The notes below the pieces were generated by a model that searched no databases, was not told where the DNA came from, and was given only the letters and a program-made list of their open reading frames with translations. Below are positions 14,976-49,208 of a DNA stretch of 64,000 nt, piece after piece. The position numbers and the translations under genes were made by a program. Location: NCBI GenBank assembly GCA_947034885.2, contig OZ019759.1:4342501-4406500 (forward strand), given 5' to 3'. The stretch's first letter is position 1; the number at the start of each line of letters is the position of its first letter. This DNA is from Thuidium tamariscinum. Its lineage: Eukaryota > Streptophyta > Bryopsida > Hypnales > Thuidiaceae.

Positions 14976-17100
14976 GGTGTACACTATTTCTCACCCTCCT
15001 TATAGCGGCTCATAATGAACTGGCTCCTTAATTGCTTCACAGTTTACAGCTTTGCGTGCTGGAGTCAGAAATTGTTTCCAGCTGACACGTAGGTGCACAC
15101 CTGTAATTACTATCTGACCTGCCCGCGATAGAAGTAAAACCTTGCTTCCCAAAGGAAAAATGTACCGTTTCAGTCCTAGTGTTCTGGTAGGGATTGACAC
15201 AAGCGTATCTCCACTGAACCTGCCATGGGAAGGGCTGGAGGGGCTTGGCATGGGGCGAACCATACCCTATCATGCGCATGTATGCCCATGCCCATGCCTG
15301 CATGTTTTTTCATCACGAATTCAGCACTGATGCTGCATTCCAGTGTTTCACTATAGTTAGTTGGTCTATTGGCAACGGTTTTGGTCGGCTCATATTTTTG
15401 CTTGCTACGGTCTACATGTTTACTTTAAAAAATTAAAAATTTTGTCCCGTTAAGTACTAAATTTATTCATAAATTATACTGAAACCATTCTTCTCGCATA
15501 CAATGTTTGGAAAAAGGTGTCTAATACCCTAAATCCATCAAACATTTGGAGAGACATATATAAATTTTTTTATTACATTTAGAATTATATAGAGATAAAT
15601 TTTCACATATATATATATATAAATATTTAAATGCACACGCATATTTTTTTATCTGTAATGCGATTCACCCAAAAAAAGAATGCATGCATGTATGTGTGTA
15701 TGAACTATCTAGGACATCAAAAATTCGAAATCCATGGCGGGTCAATCCTTTCTAACCAAAAAAATGCTCAAAATTTCCATTCCTATACCAACTAACATGA
15801 AAATATAAATAATCTCACTTCCTTCACGTCCAACAACACCATGTCATCTGTAACTAGTATGCAAATGCGTAGAATTCATTTCAAAATTTATGCCCACATA
15901 CATCGCAACATTTAGCACTGTGGAATTTTATTTCCTTGCACCCCTAATTTTTTTCCTTGAAGTCATTTTCGCTTATCTAGAAGAAAGAGCGTTTTTACAC
16001 ACACCATTTTTTTCTTCATCCACTTCCCTCTCCACAAGCTTCGGTGGTTCGTGCTAATTTTCTTGTTCTTGTACACCTCATGTTTCCTTCTTTATCAAAT
16101 TTCACTTAACTTAACGATGATGTTTTAGTACACACAACACACACCATTTTTGTGGTTCATTCATTTCCCTTTGTGCAAGCTTTTGTGCTTTGTGCCTTTT
16201 TTTTCCGGTTATTGGTCAATATATGTTTCGCCCTTTAAAACATTTCACTTATGTTAACCATAATGTTTTGAGGAACAACTACACACACTATTTTTTTAGG
16301 TGATCCACTTCTCTTTGGGCAAGGTCTAGGGTCTTAGTCCAATTTTTGGGTTCGTAGCCACCTTATGTTTCGTTCTTCTAAACATTTCGCTTCATCGAAA
16401 TTGTAATATTTGGGAACGCACTACACACCCCATTTTTTTTATCCATCTATCTTCCTATGTGCTAGGTTTAGGGGTTCTGGAAAATTCTTGGATTTGTAGT
16501 CACCTTATGTTTCGGTTTTTAAGACATCTAGCGGGATGAAATTTTAATGTCTTGGTACACACTACACACCCCATTTTTTTATTTATCTATTTCCCTTTGC
16601 GCTAAATTCTGTGGTTTATTCATTTTTGGTGTTTATGGTCACCTCATATTTCGTTCTTTAAGACATTTTGCTTAATCTAAACCGTTCTGTTCTCGTATAC
16701 AATTGCACACCCTATTTTTTTTCCTTCATCCACTTTCCTTAGTGGAACGTTTTGTGCTTTAGGCAAATTTAATGGGTTTGGATCACCTTCTATTTTGCTC
16801 TTTATAACATTTTACATCATTGAAACTTTAGTGTTTCGGTACACACTACACACACCATTTTTGGGGGGGGGGATCCACTTTTCTTTGTGTAGAATTTCTT
16901 GCTTTTTTATAAATTCTTTGCACTTTGACACCTCATGTTTTGTTCTCTATAACACTTTGCTTTACCTACACCATTTGTCTTGGTACACACTACGCACCCC
17001 ATTTTTTTGTCAACATGGAGTGCTTTGTGCTATTTTTTTGGTTTTTGGACTCCTCATGTTGCATGATTTAAAACATTTTGCAGAAACCTTAAGCCCAATG
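14976..17100 (+). repeat. Left terminal inverted repeat with 142-bp subrepeats
   Basis: The outer ~700 bp are non-repetitive and AT-rich inward (AT dinucleotide run near 15608). From about 15990 follow eight tandem units of about 142 bp anchored on ACACACCATTTTTT (near 15999, 16140, 16285, 16428, 16565, 16707, 16850 and 16990), each with a TTCATCCACTT...CACCTCATGTTTCGTTCTTT core. Pairing with the right arm ends near 16825, so the last two units lie inside the paired limit. Relative to the right arm, two units are missing between those at 16285 and 16428. Such regular subterminal units could be transposase-binding sites; that is inference. Confidence 0.85.
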
Positions 17101-18569
17101 TGATAGTGCACTTTCAATTTTTTTTCCTTTGCATGAAATTGTAGAAACTTTAGGCATATTTTAAATGCAAAGGCCAATCCTTGTTCTATAGCGCTATTTT
17201 ACATTTTCATCCGTACTACTTTAGGATGCATGTGTATTTCATAGGATAGTGGAATATAAATTTGGTGAAATATTTGACCCAAGTTCTTCATGAAATTCCA
17301 ATAAATATCAATTATTTCTCTATTGTTTGTTTGTCAAAACTCATTCTTGCAATTAAAACCCTAGAGAGTACTAGTTCACAATATAGCAATTCTTATATCT
17401 TATGATGATGTACTACTCATATTTCAAAGCCAAAAAATTGTATGATTGACTTCATCACAATCTAAAAACCTAAATTTAACCATAATTTTTTTGGCTTCTT
17501 TGAGCACTTCAGAAATAATGGACCACACATCAAATTTTTAACCAACTTTTCAAAAAAATTTTAAAAAAATCAACTTCAATAAATCGATAAAGACATTATC
17601 AACCTCATTCGCTTTGATGCTTTGCTTAGTCGTGTATTTAAAAGCAACGTTTCCACAGTACTGCAAGGCCTACCTTTGCTTCGGATGGAGGTCTGGTTAT
17701 ACCAAACCTAACCTAAATCCTTGTGCTGTGTTAGAACAATGCAATCACTGTATTCCATCTGCAACAGTGGTAGTGTTTTGCGGAATTTGTTGTTGTGCTC
17801 TTCTTCGCTCGTTCGGTTCTTGGTTTCATTGTGGTGCACTTGTTTTTGTAGCGCAAGTTCTCCTTCCTTAGGATCCAGTGGTGTAGAACTAAAGTGGAAC
17901 ATTTCAAGGAAGCACTTACGCTGCCTAGTCATAGGGTTTAGAAGTACTCGAGTGCTCCTTCCACCATCTTCAGGTTCAAATTGAGGACACAATTATGATC
18001 GCTGCAAGGGGCGCTGGATTATGGGAGTTCTTCGCTCCCATTACGCATGACTGCTGCGACATTGGACCTCCAATTCCGCAGTGGGGCACCTCCACCAGCT
18101 TCGCTTACAGAGGTTCAATTTTCACATTCCTTTGTTTTTTGGGCCGCTTCATTGTTCTTTGTCACTTGGATTGTATGTGTATTCCGTTTGAGAGATGGAA
18201 GCTCAGGATGCCGGGCGTTTTGAAAAACATTGCTGTTGTCTTTTGTTTGCATATGCCGATGAAGGGAGGCACTTGGGTGTAGCTACGGTTTAGGGCTTAG
18301 GCATTGCTTCTTGTACTTCATAGTCATTTGAGATGGGTGTTTAGGGTTTGGTGGATTTAGTGCTATCCCCGCTTGAAGCCTGGCTACTCCAATGACGAAC
18401 CCAGGGAGGTCAAAATTTAGGGTTTGGGAGTTCACTTCCAACTGTCAAGCTACCTTCTTCTACAACTGACTTCAATTTTTCATTATTGATCCACCATCGC
18501 ATTCTTTCACAGTGAACTACAACTATCCCTACAGCCCCCTCTAAGTGCCCGCGTTTGAATTCATTGCAG
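17101..18569 (+). other. Leader region of U1
   Basis: Lies between the left terminal repeat and the first recognisable U1 exon. It probably holds a first exon and intron of U1. A frame from 17995 (MIAARGAGLWEFF) and a GT donor-like site near 18112 are candidates, but the comparison with the first exon proposed for U3 (MNSTAGAEVIKDV) is too weak to fix it. Confidence 0.3.
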
Positions 18570-21500
18570 GATTGGATTTCATTACCCGGACTATTACTTT
18601 TATCATTGCCCTGTGTTTCGGTGGGGTGACCAGATTGGTTTGGCGAATTGGTTTACAACTGCTAACTTCAAAGGGGTGGCTCACTATTGCTCATGCAAAA
18701 TGACAAGGCATAAGCAGACAACGACTAGCACAGTTGGTGTACTTAAGCAGCTGCAAGGAAATGCGGCGAAGGGTGGAGAGGCTACAAAGTCGAAGGTATG
18801 CAATATTTCAGTCTAATATTCTTGGCTTCAGTCTTCCTTGTATGTTGTTATCTTTTGGTACCGTCCACCTTCTCCTTTGTTTTTGACATGGCGCTGCTTT
18901 GGAGCAGATACCATCTCCACCACCTCCGGAAGGAAAGGCTGCCTTAGTGAATGAGGGTTTCTGTCAAGCTCTTATGATAGATGGTCATGTTTACAACATC
19001 AATTATGGCTCAGTAGAAGAATTTGCTAAGCTCATACAGGAATGCGCCACTGATGTTGTTACGAACATACCACGCGCTGTTGACCCTGTCCGTTATTTTT
19101 TCCAATGCATTCACTATGGAGACCAGACCTTCACCATCAAAAACGATTGAACCATCACAAGTTTATGTCACAGTGTCCTGCCGTGTTAGATGACACAGGA
19201 AATCCTTTGCGCATGTTGCCCTATCCAGATCAAGGGAGAGGTCAAGGAAAGAAATCCGAAATGATTCGGAAGGGGAAGTCCGTGGATGTGGCGACGAAGC
19301 TTGTTACAAACAAGGGCATTAAAGATGCGATGGCTTCAACAAAGGTGAGAGTGGAGCCCTTTAAGGCCAAGAAGGAAGCTACTACAATTCCGAAGGGAAC
19401 TAGACAATCACCATCGGCAAATACAATTGCAGAAAATGCTCAGGGTGGTGGAGCAAGGACAGAGAAGACGGTACAGGGAGACAATACGGGTAATGTGAAA
19501 GGGAAAGAACAGTCAAAGTGCTGTGACAACAAAGGTGCTGATAACAAGACAAGTGCACCTCAGACTACACAACAGCAGAAGATTGTGGATTTTCCGATGA
19601 TTTAACACCGGCGAAAGGGACGCATGGCAGTAGGACCGGGAGTGGGACTGCATGTACCGATGGGGACTTCCAGAAGACAGGGAGTGCAAAGAGGAAAGAA
19701 ATAAACGTCCATCAGCCACTACGGTCGGCTTTGAAACACTACCACAAGATTGTACAGCCGGAAATGCAGGTGCAACTTGACCCTGATGTCCAGCTTGTGG
19801 GTGGAACTGCGTTGGAAATTGCTTCAAAGTTGAAGGCTAAGAGCAAGCCTATTGGAGAAGCATTGGATCCTGTTTGGGGTACTGGGAGTCAGGCAGATGC
19901 AACAACATATATAACAAGGCAGAAGGAGAAGAAACAATTGAAGCAAAATGTAAGGACTTAGTCAACATCAGGAGTCCTTGCCGGGGAATGCACAGAACCA
20001 AAGGTGACACCACTGAAGAAAGGAAGATGCCGTGTACTTCTCTCAAATGAAAGCAAGGATGAGTCACCTACAAAGCACGGTTCTAGAGGCATGGCGGATG
20101 TGGACACGGAGTTCCCGGCCAAAGACCCCGTAGTGTCACAAGACGATGCCTTCGAAGAGATGATGCACATGGACTTCATTGAAGACACTCCTGCTGAAGG
20201 TGTTCTTGAAGAGGAGGGCATCCAACATGAAGATGCTTTGGACCCTTCTGCCATAGTCCAACAAGATCAACAGTCTTCTCCTGTAGCACAGAAGCCTCAG
20301 CCCCAAATATCCACCACATCTGAACCTCCGCAGTGTTTTACTGAAGCACCGAAGCCTGTAACCAAGAAAGACGAAGCGCCTAAACCTCCAGAGTGTGGCG
20401 AGGCAGATCCAAAGCGTCATGGACAGTCTTTTGCAATGCGGAAACGAAAAGCAGGTTTGAAAACCGAAACTACGCCAGAACCACTTTCGCCCAATGTTTC
20501 GCCAGCGAAAAAGCGTCCAAAGAGTGCTGATGAATCAGCGATTGTGGTGTGGACTGGAAATTACGAAGGTAACTATGCTTTACATCAATACTGGCTAAGC
20601 GGTCGAGGTTCTCCAAAGACAAAAATGTATCATCCAGACTTAGCAGGCTGCACGTCCGGACGAATGGAGCGTCTAAATCGTGATGAGCGGGAGGTCAGGA
20701 TGGCTGCCCGTGTAAAGGTAGATGCTTTGATTGAATTGTGCCACCGCCCTAAACCGCCAATCAGTTGTGAGCCTCCAAACATCTACCATTTGCTTCAAAT
20801 TAGGCCACAGTTGTTCGAATGGGTGTGGGAGGGGCAATCAGAAGAAGCTTTTAAGGACCAGTTTCAACACTCTTGGGACTCTCAAACATTCCAAGCTGCA
20901 ACCAAGCAGTGCGTCATGTGGTGGACATGTGAGGCAAAGGTAAGAGAATGTTGACCTTAGTTTCTATTTCCAATCTACAATTTCTGAAGTGTTTTTTTTT
21001 TCTTTCTATTTTGCACTTCCCAAGAGCGTCCATTCTTTTGTGTTATGGCAATTTCCAGCATGGTTGAAAGTGTACTATTGCAAATCTGCGGCAGCAGAGG
21101 TATTGTATTCTCACCCTCCAATCTTCCATGCATGTCATCGCTCTAATTTTTTGCGTCCTTTGTTCTTTGACAGGAAGAAGATTACCCAGACGTATTTGTG
21201 GCAGTTGGCCATGCCATAAACTCTTTGTGCTACAGTGTGAAATATGGAAAAGTCCCACCAAACATCTCACTGCTGGGGACATACTTACAGTATGTTAAAG
21301 ATCTTACTGAGTATGAAGAGAAATGTCGGTCCTATGTTGTTGACTTGAAGAAAGAGCAAGAGTGCATGGTTGAGGATGTTGTGTCTAAATTCCGTCAAGC
21401 CACGAGAATGAAACGCGAGGCTTTTCTGTGGGATTGGTGCCCCCTCTGGTATGTTGTTTCAAAGAGCAAAGAGCTACTTGCAAAGCTACCGCAACCACCC

Positions 21501-23726
21501 TGGCGTCATGATGGTTAGTGATAACCGCCACTGTTCTTCGTAGGAGGAATTACTTCATTATGCCTTTATTCATTGCATTACTGTCTTTCTATTATGATGT
21601 CACAATGTTAAAGAGAAAACACTGTCACAGTCACAGTGTCACAATAAGATGTGGAACGAAAAGTACCTAATGTGAACTTGGATTTGCATTACAGACGAGG
21701 AGGCTGAGGAGGTTCGGCGCATCATCCTTGAAGAACCGTTTTCTAGAATAAAGCCGACAGCGTTTGTGCAAGTGATGCGAATAACCCTCCACAACGTCTT
21801 TGGAAGGTGGAGGCAAATGGCTTGTCCCATCTTTGGCCTCAATCGTTCGCTTCTTAGAACTCTTTGCTCTAGGCAAAGAGACATCATGCTAGTTGTATCC
21901 GCCTTCACCTTTGAAGCACCTTATCAATTTGCAGGTATGGCATCTTTCGAATGGGACTTGCTGCAATCTACCATCATCAAGGACGCACAACTTGTTACCG
22001 AGGGCAAGGGAGAACAAATTTTGGATAGCGTTTTGGATTGGCTCGAGCAAGTCCGTGTGCGTGCATTGCAAGACCTTGCACGGGATTATCCAGTTGCATT
22101 TAGGCAGTGCTGGACAACAATCCTACATGAACACTAGGGAGATCAAGCAAAGTATTGGTCTAGGTGCCTCCGCTTTCGTGAGGACTTTGACATGGGTTGG
22201 GTTGCAGATACAATGGCACCCACATGGGCTAAAAAGGTGAGGGAGACCCGTATGAAAATCATGGATCTTGTAAATTCGATGGAGACAACGTTTTGTGAAG
22301 ATGAAGACGCAATTTGGGCGAACTACCGCGCTTCTACTGTGTAGTGTTTTGCGGAAGCAGGGAATGAAACACTACAGGAACCCTCTGAGATACAAGCTCC
22401 GCCTATATCTTCCGAGTCGTTGGACCTAGTGGAGGGTCAAAACGCAATACGCATTGATGACATTTGCACCGAAGATCTCCACCTAGAAGGTTTGCCCATC
22501 TCAGACACATCGACGACTTTGGCGGATTTGGTAGGCATAGAGCCAGATTCTGCCAAGGGAAAAGGGTTTCCCATGCATGCTACTCCACGAAACATGACTG
22601 TTGAGTTCGCTTCCGCTGCAAGTACAGCTCCAGAGATTTGTTTGCAAGAAGAGGATGATACTCACGATAGTGACGACTTGGAAATTCCGCAAGACATGCT
22701 GGTTACAAAAGACCCGGTGAGTGCACAGAGAGTGGGGCATTCAAAAAGCGTGACAGTCCCCCCCCCAAACATGGCTGATTGCATGGAGACGCATGACTCC
22801 AGGTTTTCTATACAGAAGACTTATGAATATTTCAAGGTGGATGACCTCGTCGACGCCTTGCCCAGATACCCTATTTCTTTTCTTTATCCTCCAGTTCTAT
22901 TCCATGCAAAACACTGACTTCCAAAAAATTGGATTACTGATTGCTGATTTCATGACGTGTACAGAAAGGCTGCATGTCACAAAGATATTGGTACTATCAA
23001 CTTCTTTGGATTTGATTCGGAGTCTCTGCCAATGCCAATAGACCAAATCCAAGATCTGCAAAGGGGAAGAAAGATGTTGGGACAGAATGTCGTGGAGCTT
23101 TTATGTCACCGCCTTTGGTGGAGCATGTCAACAGAGGCACGAGGCCAAGTTTACATAGCTTCTTCACTTATGCAAGGTCCTCTACATCTAGCCTGGGAGT
23201 CGCAGGTGGAGGATGATCTGGTTAGGTGGGGTCGGGAATATCTTGTCCCCTCAAGAATATATATGAAGTGCCTGAAGACCTTCACAGTGGTGGTGCCATA
23301 TATAAACAATTTACATTGGTCCTTGTTCATTTTAACAGAGTCCTCATTCATGCACCTAGATAGTGCAAATTTGCATAGGAAGCCGGAGCACCAGGAGCAT
23401 GCAGAGCGCTTATGGAAGCGTGGAAGCTTGTATATGAGCCCCCTTTGTTTGGGAATCCCCCTTTGAAGAAGGTGCCAGTGTTTTGTCAGAGAGGCAACTA
23501 CGAGTGTGGGTTCTTCATGCTGCGCTTCATCGAATTGTACATTCGTTTCTTCCATATAGATGACCCCCCTTTGCCTGTGCAGAAGGCTCAGACAATGTTC
23601 TGCGCTGAGGTTATGTGTGCACAGAAGCCTGCTGCAATGCAGAAGAATGTCATCTGTGCAATTGCAGATGAGTTGAGCATCACTTCGGAGTGTGGGCTTT
23701 ACGAGCTTCCGTTTCGAGCAGTTTAG
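18570..23726 (+). pseudogene. U1: transposon Ulp1-like (C48) protease gene, broken
   Basis: Five exons read by GT-AG sites and comparison with U2 and U3: 18570-18795, 18908-20939, 21174-21513, 21695-22865 and 22965-23726. Domains in order: a short Cys motif (YCSCKM); a C2HC-like finger (CIHYGD...HHKFMSQC; its second Cys is now Tyr); a long acidic disordered region; a conserved block (VVWTGNYEGNYALHQYWLSG); PPNIYHLLQIRP; DWCPLWYVV; a helical block; and a C-terminal Ulp1 fold. Catalytic residues are visible: His (LHWSLFIL, 23314), Asp (HLDSAN, 23359), Gln (23487) and Cys (NYECGFFMLRF, 23505). Breaks: frameshifts near 19145, 19590 and 23420, and TAG at 19959, 22135 and 22342. The donor after exon 4 reads AT instead of GT (22866). 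The 23420 frameshift separates His/Asp from Cys, so no active protease can be made. Ulp1 enzymes remove SUMO or similar modifiers; this copy's substrate is unknown. Confidence 0.75.
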
Positions 23727-24604
23727 GGTCCATCATCAAGCGGATGAATTCTTGAAGCTCATAGTTCGGTAACGTAGTTGGTAGAGGACAAAGCTGACGA
23801 CCTGGATATGTAGTGGAGGCGTTAGTATGTTCGTTGGCATATTGGGGTGGAGAACACAACGTTTTTACTACGGATGAGTTCTGTAAGTGCAAGTTGAACT
23901 TTTTTAGTTTCCAAAGAGAATTGTTTGACAGGAAGGCCTCAATGTCTCGTGGTTTGCCAAATCTTTGGTGGCTGTGCATAGTGTTTGAATGTTTCAACTC
24001 TATTCAGCGTAGTGTATCAGTGTGACAGAGTTGGCTGCCAACTATTTTTTGTTCATTGTCACAGACCGCATTTCAGTGGCTAATAGTGAAACATAATTGA
24101 ACTGCTTATAACGTGGCAATCCTAAACCATCATACATATATACTATAGAATACTGTATACTGAGCAATTGAGGGGCACCTGCTTTCACTGCAAGGCTATA
24201 TTTTGTTTTAAGTGCATTTCCGCAGCATTGAATTCTTTCAATGTGGTTTGTGTATTGGAATATCACATGGACTTATCCCTCATTAAATTCAGCATTATTT
24301 TAACTTCATAGTTGTTTCTGCAGTAATTCAAGCAAGATAACAGTAACCCAACCTTGCCCCTTCTTAGTGCATGACACGAAACTCAGCGTTTTGTGAGATC
24401 CAAAGAGCAAGGTAGAGGTTGGCTCATATAGACACAAGGTTTTATTCAGATGGTATGAGGTTTACATATAATGTATGTGACTAGATTTTTTTTTTAAATT
24501 GACATTGTAGACTTTTGCCTACAAGAAACCACTACCATTGTTCACACCTTTCATCATGCCTTAGCGTCAGCGTAATGATTCCTGTACTCTACAGCCCCCT
24601 AAAT
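23727..24604. other. 3' flank of U1, no feature seen
   Basis: AT-rich sequence after the U1 stop. It has no ORF, repeat or recognisable terminal structure of its own. Confidence 0.3.
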
Positions 24605-26870
24605 GTATTCCAGTGTTTCACTGCCGTCAGATGTAAACAATGGCTAGGGTTTTGGTGACTAAGGGTTAGGCGACTCGTGTTTTTCCCTATTTGGGTCTAC
24701 AAGTCTCCCTGAATAGGAATTTAAAAATAAAAATTCGAGTAGTCTCAATAAATGTTATTTCCTGAATATTAAGACCTCTCTTCATGCATACAATGTTTCG
24801 AGAAAGGTGTCAAATGAAATGAACCCATCAAACAGTTTAAGATATATATAGAGAGTTTCAAATATGTATATATATACACACACACATATGTTTTGCTTTT
24901 TTCTTTGATTCTCCAAGAAAAACAATGTGTACATCCATGTATGTATGTATATATGGATTAGCTATGATATCAAAAAATTAAAATCCATGAAGGGTCAATC
25001 CTTTCTTGCAAAAGAAGTACAGAGAACTTCCATTCCTATACGAATAAAGATGGGAATTTTTTAAATCTTCCTTTCTTCACATATAACAATAGCATGTTAT
25101 CCGTCAGTAGGATGAAAACAGGTAGAAATAATATCAACGTTTTTGCCCACATGCATCACAAGAATTAGTATTGTGAAACTTTTCTTTACTTGCACCCCTT
25201 ATGTTTTTTCTTGAAAGAAATTTTGGCTTACGAAAAACAAATAGCATTGTCACAAACACCATTTCTTCCTCAATGCATTTTCTTCCACACAAGGTTTGGT
25301 GGGTTGTGCAAATTTTTTAGTTCTTCTACACTTCATGTTTCTTTGTTAAAGAAATATTGCTTAAGTAAACCATTATATTGTAGGTTACACAGTATGCAGT
25401 ATTCACCCCATTTTTTTGGTTCATCCATTTTCCTTTGTGCAATGTTTCGTGGTTTGTGCAATTTGTTTATGTTCTCGGTCTCCTCTTATTTCATTCTTAA
25501 AAACATTTTGCTTGATCTCAACTGTTGTGTTTATGACTTTTGGTACACACTACACACCCCAATTTCTGTGGTGATCCACTTTTCTTTGTGCAAATTTTCA
25601 GCTCTGTTCAATTTTTGGGGTTTTTGGACACGTTGTGTTTTGTTTTTTCAATCATTGTGCTTGATCACAACCAAAATGTTTTGGTTCAGAGTGTACTACC
25701 CATTTTTTTGGATGATCCACTTTCCTTTGTGATGAAATTTGTGATCCGTGCAAATTTTTTGGATTCTAGTCACCTCATGCTTAGTCCTTGGAGAAGTTTT
25801 ACTTCTATAAAGGGTCGTGTTTTGTTATACACTGCACACACCATTTTTCGGAGGGATCCATTTTCCTTTACCCAAGGTCTCGTTGTTTAGGAAATTTTTT
25901 TGGGTTTAGGGTCCTCCTGTTTTGTTCCTTGAAACTCTTCGGTAATCCTAAAACATAATTTTCTGTTACAAAGTATATACCCCATTTTTTTTGGGTCATT
26001 TTCCCTAGTGCAACATTTCATGGTTTGTGCAAATTCTTTTGTTCTAGCACACCTCAAATTTCGTTCCTTCAACCATTTACCTTTACGTAAACCACAATGT
26101 TTTGTTACAGAACCAATTTTTTGGGGTGATCCAAGATTCTTTCTGCAAGGTTAGGTGGAACCCATTTTTTTGGATGATCCAATTTTATTTCTGCAAGGTT
26201 AGGTGGTCTATGAATTTTCTTGTTCTAGAGCATTTCATGTTTCGGTCTTTAGAACATTGGATTCATCGAAACCAAAACGTTTTTGCAGTAACACTGGTTT
26301 AGGTGGTCATCCATCTTACTTTATCAAATGTTTGTTGGTTTAGGAAATTTTTGGGTTCTTCTACAACTCATATTTCGTATTTTTAAACCTTTTCCTTCAT
26401 ATAAACCAAGATGGTGATGTATACACCGTGTTCGGTCTACTGATCTATTTTGTTCTTTTCAAGTTTTTTTTTTGGGGGGGGGACATTTCTGTGTTTCTTG
26501 ACTAGTCACATTTTGCTCCTTAAAACATTTTCTTCTATCTAAACCAAATTTTTTTTATACACATACACATTTTGGGGGGTTATCCATCTTGCTTCATACT
26601 AGGGTGGATGCACTTGGAATTTCTATATGTAGTTGGACACTCGACACCTCATGTTTTGCTCTTTCAAACATTTTACTTCAGGAAAATTAAAATATTTTAG
26701 TATACACACCATTTTCTGGAGAGATCTGTTTTCATTTGTACCAGGCTTCAGTGGCGTGCCCATTTCTTCCTCCTGCACACATTTTGCTTCAAAAAGTTTT
26801 AGTACACAACCCATTTCTTTCTTTTACATTTTTATGCACGCGTACCCTCAAATATAGAATTTTTATGCAT
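24605..26870 (+). repeat. Internal diverged copy of the left terminal repeat
   Basis: Direct-orientation copy of the terminal repeat beginning at ATTCCAGTGTTTCACTG (left arm equivalent near 15337) and running through the same order of blocks: ATACAATGTTT..GAAAAAGGTGTC, an AT run, AACTTCCATTCCTATACGAA, then diverged 142-bp units (for example CACACCCCATTTTTT). It lacks the outermost ~360 bp, including the GGTGTACAC end. It is far more diverged than the two outer arms are from each other and sits directly before U2. Confidence 0.75.
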
Positions 26871-35390: not shown

Positions 35391-36297
35391 TTTTAGAGAA
35401 AGGAAATAATAGATTCAGTGTTTTGAGGCAAACTACATGCCCAGTCACCTCATGCATGACCAATGCATGAATTGTAATGACCCATCCATATCATCATAAT
35501 ACATGCTATGTATGATGGAGCATGTTGCCTCGTAGTTTGTACTGGCTGCAATGCTACAACCTCGTGTTCAGTGCCAATTCAAACGTATATAACATTGTTC
35601 TGCGTGAAGGTTAGGGTTTAGGGCGGCTAGGGTAAACACCTTCGGTGATTCTGGATTGTATCGTCGCTTCACTAGTTCCACCGTGATGTTTTGGGGTACA
35701 AGCTCGTACGTTGTATTCTCTATTCTAATATAGAGTGAAGGCGTAGCTTTGGGAGAAACAAGTGCTGGATTCTGGTATTGCAACTGAAATTTTTACATTG
35801 TTGTTTTCTTTTTGAATTTCGTGAATTGTTGTGTTGCGCTTGACTATGCTCTCCTATGAATTTCCATATTGCGGTTGGATGCATGGACTACAGAATTGTT
35901 GTATTATAGTTCAACGTCTAAACTCCTGAATTACTGTATTTTGTCTCAATACAAACATTTGTCAATTACTGTATTCCGAATTAGGGTGTTCTCTGTTTAG
36001 TTCCTAAATTGTACTGTCAGTGGGTTTTCAATTTTAATATTGCATTTCAATTGTATTGCAGACTTAGAGTTTAGAGTAATCACAGTCATTGTCTTCTGCA
36101 CTGAAGTTTAGGAATTAAGAAACTTTCGCAACCGAGATGTAGGAGACATTACTTTCTCATGAATTGTGCATTAGGGTTTAGGGTCGGGATTTTGGGGGTG
36201 GGCGGTCCTCTATTTCAAGTAGTATCAGTTGCCATAGTGGAATGAGATAAGAGTGATGTATATGCATGCTAGCCTGAATGCCTTCCTCTTAATTGAA
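35391..36297 (+). other. Leader region of the transposase gene
   Basis: Non-coding, with TTTAGGG fragments and several loose repeats of GAATTNTTGTATT between 35820 and 36010. A 3' splice site (TTGAATTCAG) at 36297 leads into the first recognisable transposase exon, so this stretch is probably leader plus intron. Confidence 0.4.
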
Positions 36298-39200: not shown

Positions 39201-40511
39201 CTTTTGTCATGCACATGAATGAATATTGAAAGTAACGTCATGCCATCCGTAGGAGGTAACATGAAACTGTCTTAGAGAATACTTGAAGGTCCATCCCAAA
39301 TCATTCACTAACTGAATTTGATGCTTGACAGGATTGTATGGTCGTCCACTGCAATCTTCCTTTGCTTATGGCACGTGCATAGGGCATGGCAAAAACAGGC
39401 TTGCATCAAGATACACGACATACCTCTACGCGCAAAGGTCCTTCAAGGCCTTGGAGTAATCATGTACGACTGTGATGCTCCGGCAGGAAATGATGCTAGT
39501 ACGTGGGCTATTCAAAAATTACAGCAGCTTCAAACTTTGTACCCTGCTGCAAACAAATTTTGGGATTACATGACAAAGCAGTGGTTGCCAAAAATTCACA
39601 TGTGGGTAGTTGGTTATAGAATTCTCCCTTATGTTGGACAGGACACCAATGCAGCGATAGAGAACTATCATGGCTACATGAAGTCCATTCTAAAGGCTAA
39701 GAGGAGTCGCTTGACAGGTCGACGTGTTGATTGGTGCATCCATGTACTCACTGGGGATGTACTCACGCACTACTGGTATGAGCAAGTGCGTAAGCGGTAT
39801 GGATTCGTGACCAATAAAAAGGAGCAAAGCATTTTTGTCTCTACACTTATCCGAGCGCGGGACATTCCTGACAATGATGTAACATTGCCAGAATGGAATG
39901 GGGGCCCAACATACGTGACATCCTCCAGCCATAGGCATCTGTAGTATGTTGTGCACAATCCGGGTGAGTTGTGGGCTATTTGCAACTATCTCCATGCTCA
40001 GAAAGGTAACACTTGTAAACACAAGCTCAAGATCTTGCAGCTTCTTCATCCTCTAGTAGCCGAAGGGACTATTGCAAGGTATTGCATAGGACTGAAGGGG
40101 AAAGCTGTAGCCGAAACAAGGGATTTACTTACTCCTGGTAGAGTACAACCTGAGCCTTCAGCACCAACACCAATGTCATGCTCTCCACATTCGCCACTGA
40201 CGTCTGAAACACTGGATCCGTCGTCACGGCAGCACGTAGACCCGCATTTCAACTTATAAGTCCAAGCTAGAGACCTGCTTGAGTTTGTTGACGGGGATGT
40301 GACTCTAATGGAGCACTTGCAGGCAAACTTTAATAGATTACTTGGAAAATTGAAGCTGCTAAAAACAGAGATAGAGTCAGGTAACATCCATCCCACGACA
40401 TCAAATCTAGTGTTTCATATAGTGCAAGATGGTCTAGGAATGCGTCTGCGACGCCTGAAAGACATGTTGGAGTGGGGGGGAAGATCACGAGCATCTAGAA
40501 GGCTGCTTTAG
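36298..40511 (+). pseudogene. Mutator-like (MURA/FAR1-type) transposase gene, broken
   Basis: Exons: 36298-36647, 36760-38786, 38922 to about 39120, and 39332-40511. An N-terminal basic region (LIWELRETQLARGPHGERKKK) is followed by five tandem AT-hook units, two EAR-like DLNVIP motifs (near 37790 and 37820), then the transposase core. Catalytic acids seen: Asp in SIDATFGTN (38757), Asp in FIVDCAQGEINSLR (39089) and Glu in NAAIENYHGYM (39660), with the family's LCLWHVHRAW in between. A SWIM-type finger follows (39981-40022), but its second Cys is Tyr (TGT-to-TAT would explain it). Breaks: frameshift in the G8 run near 36550, TGA at 36938, a one-base shift near 37760, TAG at 38697, a shift at the A9 run near 39050, TAG at 39942 and TAA at 40257. 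Such proteins bind terminal repeats and cut DNA. This copy cannot be translated whole. Confidence 0.8.
36977..37420 (+). repeat. 96-bp coding tandem repeat, five AT-hook units
   Basis: Units start at 36977, 37073, 37169, 37265 and 37361. Each is 32 codons, METCKPKRGRPKKTTAD plus a variable N-rich tail. Every unit has the AT-hook core GRPKK, preceded by KPKR or KPKQ. A sixth, older hook-like motif (RGRKK) lies just upstream, after the TGA at 36938. The frame stays open through all units. Confidence 0.92.
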
Positions 40512-42109
40512 GGCATAAACTGTCTTACTTGATTGCCATCATCTTTTTTCCACACAAGTGCTTAGAGTACAATTCACTTGTACGGTATGTGAGCATTTGA
40601 GGATGAAGCACCTTACCATTTCATATGTGGCATGCAAAAAAAAGTTTTATTGTGGTGACACTTTGCTTTTCTTCAAATTCTGTGCAGACTTGTACGATAC
40701 GGCACTTCCTAGGCAACAAATCTTCTAAGAAATGTTTGATATGGCAGATTCAAGGACTCCTGAAATGCATTGTAATTGTGCTATGATTTCATTTTGAAGA
40801 AACCGTCATGCATAGTCTTCACAGAAACAAGTCATGTTTGTAATCAATGACTGGTATGCGCTTCCGAAGTCAATGTTGTTATGATTTCAAAACACTGGAG
40901 ATGCTTCTCTATAATCCTAGATCAAAGTAGAGCCTAGTCAAGCAACGATTTGGAACATTGATTTATAAATGAAAGTACAGCCCAGTCATGCAATGATTTG
41001 GAACACTGATTTATAAATGAAAGTACAGCCCAGTCATGCAATGATGTGGAACACTGATTTATAGATACCTTTTCGACAAAACAAGTAAAGGGTCTGCAGA
41101 AATTAGTCAATCGACATTCACTACCATGCGTTAAGGACTTAAGGTCATAATAGAACCTTCACTTAAAGAAGGCAGAAATTGAATGCATGAATGATGCATA
41201 TAGCAGAGGTACACACAAACATTGACCACAGGATCCCTCCCTTGCCATTGTGCAATGACCATATACAAGTCCAAGTTTAGAAGTTAGAGACTGAAGGAAC
41301 AAAATGATCCCTAAAGCTCACAGAATGCATCCTCAACTTCATGTCAATGTCAAGCTAGTCCTAAATGGTAATATGCTCCTACTTGTCTCATAACACAAAG
41401 TTCCTTGCCATATATATATAGAAGTACTTTGGCAAGGTCCCAATTACATTGATCTAATTCATAAACTGAAGCTTCTACAGCATCAATAACATTGAGTTCA
41501 ATTAGTGAACAATCCATATCATATTCCAATCCATTAGGTTGGACTTGGTATGCAATTCTACAGAATGTCACAGTTATGTGGAGTCCATCCTAGCTATACA
41601 CACATCCATACATTGTTCTATATACATTGTAGTACAAAATATATAAGGTGGTTCAAAACAGATACATCACAAGCAGTTCAATCATGCTCTGCTATAGGCC
41701 AAGAAAACGTTACCAATCACTACAAATACTACGTGGTGAAAGACAATTCTGTCGAAGCGAAACACTGTACAGGAAATGTGATGAAACATTATAACCACCT
41801 GCATAGACAGAAATGCACCGTTAGAGCTCCATACAAAGAAGCAATACTGTTGTACAAGTAATTTACAAGGTAAAGATAGTCAGAAATCCACTAAGAAAAC
41901 CAGTGCACAAGGAGATAGGTGTCTTCTTCACCCCAACATACATAGGAAATACTGCAGACTAAATTACAGCGGGAAGTTGTGAACTCCATCCTCCAACGAC
42001 TGCTTTTTTGGACTTAGGACTTTCATGCCCGATTGGTTGGACAATGAGGAATGGAAAACTCTAAATGGAGGCTCATGAAGCCATAAAGCCGAAGCGATGC
42101 TCAATTTCG
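40512..42109. other. Spacer between convergent transposase and U3
   Basis: Non-coding sequence between the 3' end of the transposase gene and the truncated 3' end of U3. Apart from a 48-bp tandem repeat I see no structure. It would be the shared 3' region of a convergent gene pair. The U3 protease exon should lie here and does not. Confidence 0.4.
40925..41065. repeat. 48-bp tandem repeat, three copies
   Basis: Units begin at 40925, 40973 and 41021 (AAGTACAGCCCAGTCATGCA core), with TGGAACACTGATTTATA at the end of each. Copies two and three are nearly identical. Confidence 0.9.
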
Positions 42110-45100
42110 CGGGGCTAGTGTTTCAGACAGTTCCTGCAGTGTTTCGTTGTCCGCTTCCTCCAAGCATTGTGTAGTACTTGCGTGATATTTGGCCCAAACA
42201 GCATCTTCATCCTCAGTCTAAGCCATCTCCATACAGTTCACGAGGTCCATGATTCTTCCACGCACCTCCTTTGCTCTAGAAGCCCATGGTGGCGCCCCAT
42301 TGTCTGAAACCCAACCCATGTCAATGTCCTCACAGAATTGGAGGCACTTAGACCAATACTTTGCCTGCTCTCCCCAATTTTCATGTTGGATCGTCGTCCA
42401 ACACAATTTGAACGCCACTGGGTAATCACGCGCTAGGTCTTGCAATGCACGCACACGAACGTGTTGGAGCCAGTGCACAATGTTATCCAGAACTCGGTCT
42501 CCTTTTCCCTCGGTAACGAGTTGTGCATCCTTCATGATAGATGTGTGTAGCATGTCCCATTCGTAAGATGCCATACCAGAAAACCGAAAAGGTGCTTCGA
42601 AGGTAAAGACGGATAAGGCTATCAAGATGTCTCTCTGCCTATTACACAATGTTCTAACTAATGAACGACTGAGCCCATAAATAGGGCAAGTCATTTGTCT
42701 CCATTTGCCAAAGACGTTGTGGAGTGCTATCCGCAACACTTGCACGAAGGCCATGGGCTTTATTCGAGTGAAAGGTTTTGCAAGGATGATCCGCCGAACC
42801 TCCTCAGCCTCCTCATCTGCATGGCAAGCTAAAGATTATAGTTTGCAAGTAGCCTAAATTGTGACACCAAAACAATAAGAGAAACAATATGGACATTCTA
42901 AAACAATTGTTCAATGGAAGACAGCAAAAGGTCAGCACTTACCATCATGACGCCAAGGGGCCGGGAGGAGCTTTGCAAGCAGCTCCTTGCTCTCCGATAC
43001 AACGTACAATATGGGGCACCAATCCCACACAAAAGCCTCACGCTTCATGCCTGTAGCTTGACGGAATTCAAAGACCGCATCTTCTACCAAGCGCTCCTGC
43101 TCCGCCTTCAATTCATTTGCATAAGATTGGCATTTGTCCTTATATTCCAAAAGATCTTTGAGGTATTGTAAGTACTTCCCAAAGACTAAGATGTCCGGTG
43201 GGACCTTTCCATACTTTACACTATGGCACAAGGAGTTCACAGCCAAGCCTACCGATACAAATACTTAAGGGTAATCCTCCTCCTGCATGAAGTCAAGGGA
43301 TGAATATATTTTCAACGATGGCATGGAGTGCAAACAATGTACATCATTTGTGCCTATACAGGTGTGAACCTAAGCAATTCGATAGAGGGCAGTTCATTCC
43401 ATGTACGAAGCGGTTGAAATACAAAACAGTAGACAGGAGTTGGAAGTTTTAAATGGAACAACAATAAAACACCATCAAAATCACATGTGTTGAGCAAAAC
43501 TGGAAGTCAACATGTCTTACCTTAGCCTCGCATGACCACCACATTACACACTCCTTCGTTGCCGCTTGGAATGTTTGAGAGTTCCAAGAGTCCATAAAGC
43601 GGTCTTGGAACTCCGCTTCTGACTGCCCCTCCCACGCCCAGTCCAACAATTCTGGCCTGATTTTCAACAAGTGGTACATGTTGGGAGGCTCAGAATTGAC
43701 GGGTGGCTTAGGACCGTGGTGTGATGATGACAAGCCATCTGCCTTCACACGGGCAGCCATCTTCACCTCTTCCTCATCACGATTTAACCGCTCAACTCGA
43801 CCAAATGTGCAATATGCCAAATCTGGATGATACATTTTGGTCTTTGCAAAACCAAGACCGGTGAGCTAATAACGATGTAAGCCATGGTTCCCTTCGTAAT
43901 TACCTGTCCACTCCACTATTGCCAACTCATCACTACTCCTTGGCCACTTCGTTTCTGGTGTAACAGTAGGGGAAAGCACCCCTGCATCCGCTACTGCATT
44001 TGAACCTGCTTTCCATTTACGGCTTCCAGAAAATTGCCGTTGAGAATTGTTAGCTACCTTAGAACGTAGCTGCGGTTTAGCGGCTTTCAGTTTCTTGGCC
44101 TTCGACGTAGATGGTGGAGTAGAACACTACTGCAAAGTAGGTTCTACGACTTCTATGGGCAGAGTGCCGGGGGCCAGAGTAGAGCACTGCTCCGGTTCTA
44201 ACTCAGCAACGGTAGGCTAGGAAGTATGTTCCGCTAAATCTTCATGGTGGATGCACCCTTCTTCTTGGACACCGTCGAAGTGGTCATCCAGTGACAATGG
44301 AGACTGCTCGTCTACAAATTCGCTAGAAACGTTTGGGTGGCTTGTCGAAGGTGGTGGTGCACTAGACGCCGAAACACACTTGGGCGATGACTTCTCTTCG
44401 CTATCATCAGAGAGAATAATCTGATTGCTTCGTCTCTTTGGTCGCGTAACGTCCGATTGTGTGCAGTGTTTCGCAGCGTTGGCCGAAGTTGGTCCTTCAT
44501 TAACATCACCCTTTGATTGATCCTTCTTCTCCTGCACTATCATCTTTGTTGGTACAGAAGCTTCAACCCCAGAACCCAAGATGGGATGAAGTGCCTCTTC
44601 AGAATGGATTTTGTTTGCCTTCATTTGTGATACAATCTGCAACACCGTCCCACCTGCACCCTGGCCAGCTACTTCGACGTGCACCTGTGTTTCTAGCTGT
44701 GGAGTCTTCTGAAGGGAGTTGATTGTTGGATGTATTGGTTGCTCGCTAATCAGATAGGTTTTCTTCGCAGTCACTGGCTCCTGGAAGTCCCCTATGGTGT
44801 CTTCAGTGTCACGCCTTGCTACAGTGTCACACTCTCCTCCCGCTGATGTAGCATCTTTGGCAAACCGCACAGTCCTCTGCTTCTCTATAATTTGAGGCTG
44901 ATTTATCTTCCCAACACCATCCACAGACTCTTCGTCATGGCCCTTCTTATGTGACTTCTTCTTTGAACTAGCTTGACCTCCTTGGCTTGCTTTCTGGCTG
45001 ACCTTAGTGCTAGCGTCCCCAGCAACTTCTGTAATGGTTTTTGCCAAAGGACTTGCCCTTTTTCCTCCAGGAATCATATTAGACTCCTTGTTAGCCTTAC

Positions 45101-46551
45101 AAGGCTCCACTCTGACCTTAGCTGAAGCTTCTCCACTCTTGGTGCCCTTCTTTCAGACCAACTTTGTCTCCACGTCCACTGTCTTCCCCTTCCGAATCAT
45201 TTAGGGTTTCTTGCCTTGTCCCGACCCTTGATCTGGATATGGCAACATCCGCTTAGGGTTTCCAGTGTCGTCTAGTACGGTAGGACACTGAGACATGAAC
45301 CGATGATGGTTCAGTCGGTTCTTGCTCATGAAAGTCTGGTCTCCACAATGAATGCACTGGAAAAAAAAGCGAACAGGGTCGACAGTGCGTGGTATGTTTG
45401 TAACTGCATCCGTGGCACATTCGTGCAAAAGTTCAGCAAACTCTTCAGCTGAACCGTAATTGACATTATACACTCGACTGTCTATAGTAACAGCCTAACA
45501 GAAATTGTCATTGAACGATGCAGGTTTGTCTTCCTCAGGTATTGCCATTGTTGGGAGTATCTGCCACGTCCAAAGCAATGCCATTTCAGAAAAATGGACT
45601 AAATATTCCAAAGCAATGCCATTTCACAAACATGGAAGAAGGACCCTAAACTGAAGATATCAACGTCCTAAAAGCACACGGGGCTCAGAGAAGGCACTGT
45701 AACACTGCGTACCTCAGAATTGTCTAGCTGTCCATGTGTGGCTGCATCTCCTTCCAAATGCCTCAGTGCACCATCTGCAGCAATTGTTGTGTGCGTGTGC
45801 TTTGTCATTTTGCAGCGGGAGCAACGAACCTCCTCTCGAAGGTCAACAAAAGTAAACCAATTTGCCCACCTTATCTGCTCCCCCCAACGAAACACAAGCC
45901 GATAGTAGAAGTAATGGTCTGGGTAAAGGATGCCAACCCAGCAATTCATTGAAACGTGCCTACTTAGATTGGGCAGCAGAGACGGTGCTAAAAAACAATG
46001 CAACAGGATAATGGTGGATCATTGCTATGAAATTCACATTGATCACCCTAAACCCTAAACCGCAACATATTTTCATGGCCCTAAAACAAATTTCTTACCT
46101 CCCACTATCGCTCATCGGAGCAGCTGCAGCACAAATACAAATTACCAACAGCTCCTACAAAAATTACTCATGCAAAAGCAGTCGGCGATGCAAACGAAGA
46201 TGACAATGTTATCCTACAACTGTGCCCGATGCCAATACACTCCGTAAACCCTAAACCCTAATGTAGCACTTCTGTAAACAACCTTGCAGCCTACGATTGT
46301 AAAGAGCCTTCAACCTATGCTCAGAGGAACGAAATGCAATGCAACTGAATGAGAAGACTCAAGCCCTGCAGAAGAAGGAAGAAGGGCAGAAACAAAACCT
46401 GCGCAAATAAAGACAGGAAAGATGTCTGTTTTGGACTAGCTAGTCCAATCGCGCCATCTTGATTCGCAAAAGTTGCGACGTCCTTGATCACTTCGGCACC
46501 CGCTGTAGAATTCATAATGTTTGCCTCCGCTGAATGTCTTAACAATAGCAT
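42110..46551 (-). pseudogene. U3: Ulp1-like transposon gene lacking the protease domain
   Basis: Minus-strand sister of U1 and U2. Probable exons: 46551 (or 46515) to 46399 with MNSTAGAEVIKDVATFANQ, about 45942-45713, 45560-43521, 43282-42943 and 42816 to about 42110. It retains the CSRCKM motif, an intact C2HC-like finger (CIHCGD...HHRFMSQC), the long acidic region, VEWTGNYEGNHGLHRY, DWCPILYVV and the WRQMTCPIYGLSRS block. Homology to U1/U2 stops near 42110 after ETLQELSETLAP, before the Ulp1 domain, so this copy is 3'-truncated. Stops: TAG at 45495-45497 and 43866-43868 match Gln and Trp in the sisters; TAA at 45201-45203 and 43265-43267 are not simple transitions. The acceptor before the second exon reads CTG instead of CAG. 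Its 5' end faces the right terminal repeat. Confidence 0.7.
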
Positions 46552-47040: not shown

Positions 47041-48534
47041 TTCATATCATTTTCAATGAAGTAAAATGTTATAAAGAGCTCAATTGAAGGTGACCCAAAT
47101 CCATTAAATTTGACTAAAGCACAAAATGTTCCACTAAGTAAAGTACATGAAGGAAAAAAATAGGGTGTCGAATTGTATACCAAAACATAATAGTTTAGAT
47201 TAAGCAAAATGTCTTACAGAACGAAACATGAGGTGACCATAAACACCAAAAATGAATAAACCACAGAATTTAGCGTAGAGGGAAATAGATAAACCAAAAA
47301 AATGGTGTGTGTAGTGTGTACCAAAACATTAAAATTTCATCCCGCTAGATGTTTTAAAAATCAAAACATAAGGTGACTACAAATCCAAGAATTTTCCAGA
47401 ACTCCTAAACCTAGCACACAGGAAGATAGATGGATAAAAAAAATGGGGTGTGTAGTGCGTTCCAAAATAGTATGGTTTTGATGAAGCACAATGTTTCAAA
47501 GAGCAAAACATAAGGTGACTGAAAACTAGAAAAGTAGCCTAAACCCGTAAACCTTGCACCAAGAAAAGGGGATGAATCCAAACAATGGGGTGCAAAGTGG
47601 GTACGAGAACATAACGGTTTAGATCCAGCAAAATGTCTTCAAGAACGAAATATGAGGTGACCCTAAACAACAAAATTGCTGAAAGCACATAATTTAGCAC
47701 AGAGGAAGATAAATGGATAAAAAAAATGGGGTGTGTAGTGTGTTCCCAAAAATTACAATTTCGATGAAGCAAAATGTTTAGAAGAGCGAAATATAAGGTG
47801 GCTACAAACCCAAAAATTGGACTAAGCCCCTAGACCTTGCCCAAAGAGGAGTGGATCACCCAAAAAAATGGTGTGTGTAGTTGTTCCTCAAAACATTATG
47901 GTTCACATAAGTGAAATGTTTTAAAAGGCGAAACATATATTGACCAATAACCGGAAAAGAAAAGCACAAAGCACAAAAGCTTGCACAAAGGGAAATGGAT
48001 GAACCACAAAAATGGTGTGTGTTGTGTGTACTAAAACATCATCGTTAAGTTAAGTGAAATTTGATAAAGAAGGAAATATGAGGTGTACAAGAACAAGAAA
48101 ATTAGTACGAACCACCGAAGCTTGTGGAGAGGAAAGTGGATGAAGAAAAAAATGGTGTGTGTAAAAACGCTCTTTCTTCTAGGTAAGTGAAAATAACTTC
48201 AAGGAAAAAAATGAGGGTTGCAAGGAAATAAAATTCCCACAGTGCTAAATGTTGCGATGTATGTGGGCATAAATTTTGAAATGAATTCTACGCATTTGCA
48301 TACTAGTTACGGATGACGTGGTGTTGTTGGATGTGAAGGAAGTGAGATTATTTATATTTTCATGTTAGTTGGTATAGGAGTGGAAATTTTGAGCATTTTT
48401 TTGGTTAGAAAGGATTGACCCGTCATGGATTTTGATTTTTTGATGTCCTAGATAGTCCATACACACATGCATGCATGCATTCTTTTTTTGGGTGAATCAC
48501 ATTACAAATAAAAAAATATGCGTGTGCATTTAAA

Positions 48535-48570
<36 letters not shown>

Positions 48571-49199
48571 AAAATTTATCTCTATATAATTCTAAATGTA
48601 ATAAAAAATATATATATATGTCTCTCCAAATGTTTGATGGGTTTAGGGTATTAGACACCTTTTTCCAAACATTGTATGCGAGAAGAATGGTTTCAATATA
48701 ATTTATGAATAAATTTAGTACTTAACGGGACAAAATTTTTAATTTTTTAAAGTAAACATGTAGACCGTAGCAAGCAAAAATATGAGCCGACCAAAACCGT
48801 TGCCAATAGACCAACTAACTGCAGTGAAACACTAGAATTCAGCATCAGTGTTGAATTCGTGATGAAAAAACATGCAGGCATGGGCATGGGCGTACATGCG
48901 CATGATAGGGCATGGTTCACCCCATGCCAGGTCCCTCCAGCCCTTTCCATGGCAGGTTTAGTGGAGATACGCCTGTGTTAGTCCCTGCCATAACACTGGG
49001 ACTAAAACGGTACATTTTTCCTTTGGGCAGCAAGGTTTTACTTCTATCGCAGGCAGGTCAAATAGCAATTACAGGTGTGCACCTGCGTGTCAGTTGGGAA
49101 CAATTTCTGACTCCGGCACACAAAGCTGTAAACTGCGAAGCAATTAAGGAGCCAGTTCATTATGAGCCGCTATAAGGAGGGTGAGAAATAGTGTACACC
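47041..49199 (-). repeat. Right terminal inverted repeat with 142-bp subrepeats
   Basis: Inverted partner of 14976 to about 16825. In the outer 200 bases I count about eleven differences, mostly transitions. Eight 142-bp units are present (AATGGTGTGTG-type anchors near 48152, 48011, 47868, 47725, 47586, 47445, 47303 and 47162). Those at 47725 and 47586 have no partner in the left arm, and the AT dinucleotide run near 48540 is longer than on the left. Confidence 0.85.
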
Positions 49200-49208
49200 G
49201 CAAAAGTC
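49200..49208 (+). repeat. 9-bp target-site duplication, right
   Basis: GCAAAAGTC, partner of GCGAAAGTC at 14967-14975. Confidence 0.8.

Follow-up and report, generated by a model that had tools for sequence, protein, structure and literature searches.

A giant Ulp1-carrying Mutator-like element with three accessory paralogues in the genome of the moss Thuidium tamariscinum

Background

MuDR of the maize Mutator system carries two genes that face each other, the second of which is mudrB, and in Mutator elements the terminal inverted repeats (TIRs) serve as promoters. Other Mutator-like elements (MULEs) combine the transposase with a different partner, such as the KAONASHI elements of Arabidopsis (KI/KIU), which carry a MULE transposase gene and an Ulp1-domain gene that is reversed relative to it, and Ulp1-bearing MULEs have also been described in melon, rice and grapevine (PMC2528002, PMC13317346). 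Ulp1 domains are recurrent in plant transposons, where their precise function is unknown, and in non-TIR MULEs the partnership has been dated to the monocot-eudicot split (PMC13317346). MULEs with multiple or tandem TIRs, in which extra TIR copies lie internally, occur in tomato, maize, rice and Arabidopsis, and the tomato set is mostly non-autonomous (PMC3310237). In VANDAL elements, the target motifs of the VANC proteins sit in tandem repeats of the non-coding parts (PMC5735166). Large DNA elements with extra open reading frames (ORFs) are represented among eukaryotes by Teratorn, the Polintons and enlarged CACTA elements of red algae (PMC6431247).

Here, we analysed a window of 64,000 nucleotides, the whole stretch under study, from the moss Thuidium tamariscinum (contig OZ019759.1; positions below are those of the window), in which an initial annotation had placed an unusually large, gene-rich Mutator-like element. 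We conclude that 14976–49199 (34,224 bp) is a MULE, a DNA transposon with inverted ends and a 9-bp duplication. We hold this explanation with high confidence; the proposed steps on transposition and promoters are inferred, and the anti-silencing step carries a confidence well short of even.

Results

The element begins at 14976 with GGTGTACACTATTTC... and its inverse copy finishes at 49199, exactly as annotated. Alignment of the left TIR (14976–17100, + strand) with the right TIR (47043–49199, − strand) gave eleven differences in the first 200 columns, in line with the earlier estimate of about eleven. Identity is 88–100% per 100 columns across the first 1,500 columns and 61–74% onward to ~2.1 kb, the length of the TIR, with an overall value of 86.9% across 2,120 ungapped columns. 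The end homology of 1.85–2.15 kb that had been proposed does extend over about 2 kb, but near-identity is limited to the outer ~1.5 kb, inside which lies a tandem array. The flanking 9-mers GCGAAAGTC (14967–14975) and GCAAAAGTC (49200–49208) agree at eight of nine positions, and the empty site carries a single 9-mer, GCAAGAGTC. All ten paired elements checked have such flanking 9-mers (9/9 agreement in eight, 8/9 in two), a count from which nine unpaired ends were left out. The pair flanking one close copy, C4 (9/9), is T-rich.

Empty sites were sought with the joined flanks, and 21 of 21 non-self matches cross the join uninterrupted; these are paralogous empty sites. The same matches show that the left (14726–14966) and right (49209–49458) flanks belong to one dispersed repeat, which is older than the element and was the target of its insertion, with duplication of 9 bp.

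The genome contains four further copies of the family, with 94.7–95.6% identity to the window copy outside the TIRs. Four end pairs were found, each flanked by a duplication of its own; three span 34,224, 34,284 and 35,114 bp and the fourth, a deletion derivative, 13,972 bp. The two ends, tested for occurring apart, stand together in four of the five close copies; in the fifth, C6, the right end alone was seen and pieces are scattered over ~90 kb. That the ends come from separate insertions, or that nested insertions or misassembly inflated the size, is hardly credible: insertions do enlarge C6 and repeat-rich regions are prone to misassembly, but the architecture, whole or partial, is common to five copies at different places, the four end pairs carry their own duplications and empty sites exist. 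We reject this reading because of the empty sites and the shared architecture. Close copies of the element occur as whole units at other genomic places, and MULEs are shown to move as 34-kb units. The size does not stem from inserts private to the window copy, because 33,320 of its 34,224 positions have a counterpart in one or more of the other copies and the sole unmatched stretch longer than 20 bp (47574–48471) lies inside the right TIR; inserts that predate the spread of the copies may contribute. Since the right third of C4 is diverged and the middle of C8 is inverted, simple descent from a single master does not account for all copies. The annotated size is indeed unusual when set against a published table of grapevine MULEs, in which the longest is 17.7 kb and TIRs reach at most 710 bp (PMC2528002).

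The transposase gene (36941–40259, + strand) has at least three exons, an AT-hook repeat array with a 96-bp tandem unit and a MULE DDE domain, and in the window its reading frame is disrupted by frameshifts and in-frame stops. The MULE family PF10551 matched the joined exons of C4 with an E-value of 3.8e-12 (46.9 bits, cutoff 27.6), and the only other Pfam matches at E ≤ 1 were PF21056, AT_hook and a sub-cutoff DUF5575_C. The 9-bp duplications, the long TIRs and this domain bear out the Mutator-like identity; the 'MURA-type transposase' annotated earlier stands as far as the MULE domain goes, but the Pfam family that we take to mark MuDR gave no match at E ≤ 1 in the C4 joined exons. CxxH and SWIM-like motifs were spotted by eye, and a SWIM match appeared in the 17.4-kb C9 relative alone (E 0.01, 15.8 bits, below the cutoff of 19.6), with none listed for the C4 protein. 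The transposase dN/dS for C4 against C9 is 0.075. The element would transpose by cut-and-paste, with the MULE transposase acting on its ends. A Pack-MULE was ruled out, as the element holds its own (broken) transposase gene; host gene fragments were sought via Pfam only.

As for the supposed gene richness, the content amounts to one transposase gene and three paralogues of a single accessory gene, recognized by paralogue blocks. U1 (18559–23717, + strand; exons approximate, several conserved blocks) has a conserved middle domain that matches no Pfam family, followed by a terminal Ulp1-type protease domain (PF02902, E 8.1e-4, 19.7 bits, slightly below the cutoff of 20.7). Its paralogue U2 (28198–33460, + strand) has the same protease domain (E 3.2e-4, 21 bits) with the His, Asp, Gln and Cys columns all present in the alignment. 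U3 (42173–45949, − strand) faces the transposase gene, and a search for the protease domain in it found no match. Ulp1 was the only Pfam domain to reach its cutoff in the scanned pieces of the accessory genes; its matches lie close to the cutoff and two scored pieces fall short of it. PF02902 was matched at E ≤ 0.1 in eight of ten homologues (best 1.8e-5). A single-sequence search of the PDB with the U2 protease piece gave nothing at E ≤ 1, and a ten-row profile gave just five matches at that threshold, all weak (E 0.04–0.19) and all to Ulp1/SENP8/ChlaDub-type proteases. Structure predictions were of low confidence, with a mean pLDDT of 35.6 for the U2 protease piece and 48.4 for the U3 middle domain.

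Outside the giant family, the transposase and Ulp1 genes face each other in 36 of 36 pairs among the matches compared. This facing pair is the usual plan in the host genome, and the giant element is related to this widespread MULE lineage, in which a gene for an Ulp1-type cysteine protease faces the transposase gene. The giant family departs from the plan in having three copies of the accessory gene: U3, which occupies the facing position, has no detectable protease domain, and U1 and U2, which retain the domain, lie upstream of the transposase gene, U2 behind an extra inner-TIR copy. In the tree, built without the U1 pieces of C2 and C8, U1–U3 and the gene of the C9 element cluster together (93/91).

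The accessory genes might be passengers: captured sequence that does nothing for the element and is retained by hitchhiking. MULEs often capture genes (PMC13317346), and U3 is without a protease match and evolves near neutrality between copies of the family, with dN/dS of 0.75–0.87. With U1 at 0.44–0.85 and U2 at 0.37–0.54 between copies, a large share of the recent divergence reflects decay. We nevertheless consider this improbable, as the transposase–Ulp1 pair recurs at 36 other places, always facing among the matches compared, and dN/dS between U2 and the C9 gene is ~0.12, at a dS near saturation. Ten aligned homologues show no variation in the His, Asp, Gln and Cys columns; nine protease loci were retrieved, and L070, from a 54.9-kb element, was excluded from the alignment with two stops and an Asn that breaks the Asp column.

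The inner TIRs consist of ~142-bp units with a 28-base core motif, which has six matches in the left array (16127–17009), all on the + strand, and six in the right, all on the − strand. An internal copy of the inner TIR upstream of U2 (24837–26107, + strand; 69% identity to TIR positions 603–1794) holds five more, and a second, shorter TIR-like stretch lies upstream of the transposase gene (34646–35012, + strand). All 17 matches in the window fall within arrays and all 36 in the genome inside the five family copies, with none for a backward-pattern control; within the host genome, the motif is specific to the giant family. By the Mutator rule of the TIR as promoter, the inner TIRs and internal copies would be promoter or leader regions of the genes behind them.

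CG/CHG decay in the window copy, which is defective, indicates past methylation, a scar apparently left by host silencing. Local protection of the internal array was sought, and CG/CHG decay there was no lower than in the rest of the dead copy.

Discussion

By analogy with VANC on VANDAL motifs, we tentatively propose an anti-silencing role for the Ulp1 proteins, in which they would be recruited to the family-specific arrays and there remove SUMO, or a modifier like it, from silencing proteins. It is possible, at a confidence again well short of even, that they instead aid transposition directly, for instance by deSUMOylating repair proteins or the transposase, and that the arrays bind the transposase. 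Mutator TIRs contain transposase binding sites (PMC3310237), and by eye the motif sequence GGTACACACTA agrees with the terminus of the element, GGTGTACACTA, at 9 of 11 positions and with that of its relatives, GGTGCACACTA, at 10 of 11; but the full 28-base motif fits the terminus at best at 14 of 28 positions, with two ungapped offsets tied, and the internal array is distant from both ends, whose recognition does not need it.

The anti-silencing proposal can be extended to a moss MULE system in which an Ulp1 protease, tied to MULEs at dozens of loci, would be a sequence-addressed deSUMOylating factor docking on the 142-bp arrays, its gene tripled, with its own TIR-derived promoter array for one copy and perhaps for each, as an arms-race escalation; in this full form we rate it as rather unlikely. 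If true, bryophytes too would have the Ulp1–MULE partnership, whether inherited from deep ancestry or evolved convergently. The role of Ulp1 in transposons becomes testable here because of the facing pairs at dozens of loci, the family-specific arrays, the readable methylation decay and the tripled gene. As a moss, the host belongs to a haploid lineage that is readily transformed.

The giant element resembles MuDR in its 9-bp duplication, its TIRs, its MULE DDE transposase and the two facing genes of the ancestral plan, and differs in that its second gene is of Ulp1 type rather than mudrB, its TIRs are ~2 kb and no MuDR-specific Pfam family is matched at E ≤ 1. With VANDAL elements it shares motifs in tandem arrays, family-specific here, and its accessory proteins may, like VANC, bind these motifs and remove DNA methylation. 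Compared with multiple-TIR MULEs, its internal copies are without the outer ~500–600 bp and are placed before genes, and unlike the mostly non-autonomous tomato set (PMC3310237) it has its own transposase gene. Size and extra ORFs are common to it and to Teratorn, the Polintons and CACTA, whereas its transposase is that of a MULE; viral-type genes (polymerase, capsid, integrase) were absent from the Pfam matches of the pieces scanned, which are part of the ORFs. Among the matches listed in a literature search of mainly non-subscription sources, bioRxiv not included, no title or abstract opening named a moss Ulp1-MULE or a ~34-kb MULE. As described, KI shares with it the MULE transposase and the Ulp1 (C48) accessory gene (PMC2528002, PMC13317346), but KI elements are non-TIR, whereas the giant element has ~2-kb TIRs, three accessory paralogues, a length of 34 kb and a moss host. 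What is new is a giant variant of the already known Ulp1-carrying MULEs.

Insertion site and genomic setting

The giant element, a Mutator-like transposon (MULE) of 34,224 bp (window 14976-49199), was inserted whole and duplicated 9 bp at the target. The initial annotation had proposed matching ends, long terminal homology and such a duplication, all of which were borne out: in the alignment of the left end with the inverted right end, 11 of the first 200 columns differ, identity is 88-100% per 100 columns up to 1,500 and 61-74% from there to ~2.1 kb, and the flanking 9-mers agree at 8/9 positions. Empty sites, which it had named as a check, were found as well. A query of joined flanks (250 + 250 bases) gave 23 matches in the genome (363,211,507 bases, 19 contigs; the window is C11:4342501-4406500), of which two are self-matches of the window. 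The remaining 21 span positions 1 to 499 or 500 (19 matches) or 1-464 (two) and thus all run uninterrupted across the join, so the element was inserted into an older dispersed repeat. At the best empty site (locus L050, C11:6050960; 6050960-6051458), the only one of the 21 that was aligned, identity is 80% and the 9-mer GCAAGAGTC is single. The target repeat is concentrated on C11 (16/21 non-self matches on 17.5 Mb of the 363-Mb genome), a contig that is perhaps a sex chromosome or unusual in some other way.

The window also contains an outer inverted pair (10260-11093 and 56267-57100; 71-79% complementary, ~46 kb apart), probably two copies of another repeat because the ORFs at its two sides are alike and oppositely oriented, two near-perfect, MITE-like palindromes of ~200 bp (51320-51537, 92%; 59487-59681, 94%) with 5-6 bases between the arms, and, outside the giant element, tandem repeats of 176 bp (6580-7760) and ~35 bp (2025-2627). 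Contig C19 looks like the plastid, from an rbcL frame (top PDB match of the protein, 9chz) and an adjoining frame that we take to be accD-like. The search for PF01000 (plastid-type RNA polymerase alpha) gave one match above cutoff on C2, one below cutoff on C5 and none on C19; movement of rpoA from the plastid to the nucleus is a moss trait. We regard the host as a plant, most probably a moss.

Family copies and diverged relatives

Other copies with the same ends, also raised in the initial annotation, were recovered by a genome search with the left terminal inverted repeat (TIR), which found four more, 94.7-95.6% identical to the window outside the TIRs where aligned. The copy on C4 (34,284 bp between ends; T-rich 9/9 duplication) departs from the others in its right third, that on C8 (C8:13783509-13818622; 35,114 bp; 9/9) has an inverted middle (window 24071-40867), that on C2 (13,972 bp; 8/9) lacks most of the middle, and that on C6 has a right end only, its interior scattered across ~90 kb. 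A TIR version without the equivalent of window ~15689-16301 occurs at both C8 ends, one C4 end and the C6 right end; the stretch is retained in C2, in the window and at the second C4 end.

The 70 outermost bases, used as a query, recovered 29 ends, 20 of which make 10 inverted pairs and nine of which are unpaired. Six pairs are diverged relatives (54,900, 5,382, 30,241, 21,173, 17,435 and 18,410 bp between ends), likewise inserted as units, with 9/9 duplications in all six. The largest (C11:14581705-14636604) has one transposase and one Ulp1 match near each other and, ~35 kb from these other gene parts, a match to the middle domain (a conserved part of the accessory genes without Pfam match); this distance suggests internal insertions, so its size is probably inflated.

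Transposase and accessory genes

The transposase gene (36.9-40.3 kb, + strand) encodes AT-hook repeats and a MULE domain, the latter matched by PF10551 at 3.8e-12 in the joined exons of the C4 copy. In the window it is broken by stops and frameshifts, several absent from other copies; the compared codons contain three stops in the window, one in C4, four in C6 and one in C8. Three accessory genes, U1 (18.6-23.7 kb, +), U2 (28.2-33.4 kb, +) and U3 (45.9-42.2 kb, -), are related in several conserved blocks, with approximate exon borders, and U1 and U2 end in an Ulp1-type domain. Against PF02902 (curated cutoff 20.7 bits), U1 scored below the cutoff (E 8.1e-4, 19.7 bits), one U2 exon above it (3.2e-4, 21.0 bits) and a longer U2 piece below it (6.3e-4, 20.1 bits), and the gene of the C9 relative, the diverged 17.4-kb element, above it (2.7e-4, 21.3 bits). 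PF02902 matched 8/10 aligned homologues at E<=0.1, and His, Asp, Gln and Cys columns, which we take to be the catalytic ones, are invariant across all ten; an eleventh homologue from the 54.9-kb element (L070; Asn for Asp, two stops) was kept out of the alignment. In the PDB, the ten-homologue profile weakly matched five sequences at E<=1, each of them a protease of Ulp1, SENP8 or ChlaDub type; a single protease sequence used as query matched none.

None of the genome's Ulp1 matches falls at U3, the gene that faces the transposase in the window. An Ulp1 match lies within 9 kb of 39/52 transposase matches and of none of the other 13 (C6 included). In the pair comparison, which used 52/71 transposase matches (19 weakest or partial rows left out) and 47/52 Ulp1 matches (five partial or weak rows left out), 37 of the 39 pairs face each other, including the C8 copy owing to its inversion, and the two same-strand pairs are the window and C4, so that outside the giant family all 36/36 pairs among the matches compared are facing. 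Gene order points to a facing transposase and Ulp1 gene as the ancestral plan. In a midpoint-rooted middle-domain tree of 22 rows, U1, U2, U3 and the C9 gene form one group (93/91) and U1 and U2 are each supported at 100/100; the branching order among U1, U2, U3 and the C9 gene is unsupported, and the U3 of C4 falls apart from the other U3 rows. On the simplest reading, the accessory gene would have multiplied inside the giant-element lineage before the copies spread.

Arrays and internal TIR copies

The inner TIR contains units of ~142 bp, and the best-kept part of the seven left units is the ACACACYCCATTTTT core (0.80 vs a median of 0.61). A 28-base motif (<=8 mismatches) has 17 matches, six in the left TIR (+), five in a copy at 25.4-26.0 kb (+) and six in the right TIR (-), with none elsewhere in the window and none in any of 10 shuffled versions of the array stretches; its 26-base form (<=3 mismatches) has 36 genome matches, 36/36 within the five copies, and the backward-motif control has 0. 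Ahead of U2 lies a stretch that copies the inner TIR at 69% identity and lacks the outer ~500-600 bp; the transposase gene is preceded by another, shorter TIR-like stretch, free of motif matches.

Substitution decay and past constraint

Of 550 substitutions private to the window copy, counted at positions on which three or more other copies concur, 373 are C>T or G>A. Rates in this copy are 88/851 at CG, 107/1042 at CHG and 112/6110 at CHH, vs 54/13017 for A>G or T>C. The CG/CHG tilt recurs, more weakly, in C4 (44/778, 54/938, 88/6160; A>G 102/13108), C6 (57/709, 76/882, 69/5339; 30/11515) and C8 (29/722, 57/915, 60/6017; 41/12973). Such an excess would be the expected trace of CG and CHG methylation; sparing of the internal array region was not seen in the window copy (CG 5/32, CHG 6/49). 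Between C4 and the C9 relative, transposase dN/dS is 0.075 (525 codons, 83.6% identical), and for U2 against the C9 gene it is 0.119 (600 codons, 57.5% identical) at a near-saturated dS of 2.6; for U1 and U3 dS was saturated and gave no dN/dS. Among family copies the ratios are 0.21-0.46 (transposase), 0.37-0.54 (U2), 0.44-0.85 (U1) and 0.75-0.87 (U3). These ratios argue for genes constrained in the past and decaying since.

Proposed working and comparison with known systems

The MULE transposase presumably cut and pasted the giant element, and the inner TIR copies could serve as leaders of the genes behind them. By analogy with VANC, the proteins of Arabidopsis VANDAL elements, we tentatively propose that the Ulp1 proteins might reverse silencing at elements carrying their arrays, a role we consider less likely than not. 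An equally good alternative is that they act directly in transposition and that the arrays are bound by the transposase. The precedent for anti-silencing by a MULE-encoded protein is the VANC work, which describes binding to tandem motifs and stripping of methylation (PMC5735166, PMC10398659).

The giant element is a MULE; we assign it to neither the KAONASHI (KI) nor the VANDAL elements, because KI elements lack TIRs, unlike the giant element, and no domain besides Ulp1 was matched in the accessory-gene pieces scanned. Ulp1-bearing MULEs in Arabidopsis, melon, rice and grapevine, and MULEs with extra TIRs, are already described. As far as our search extended, an Ulp1-bearing MULE in a probable moss host is new, as are three accessory paralogues with one internal gene preceded by a TIR-derived array, a family size of 34 kb, and TIRs of ~2 kb, compared with up to 710 bp in the grapevine MULE table.
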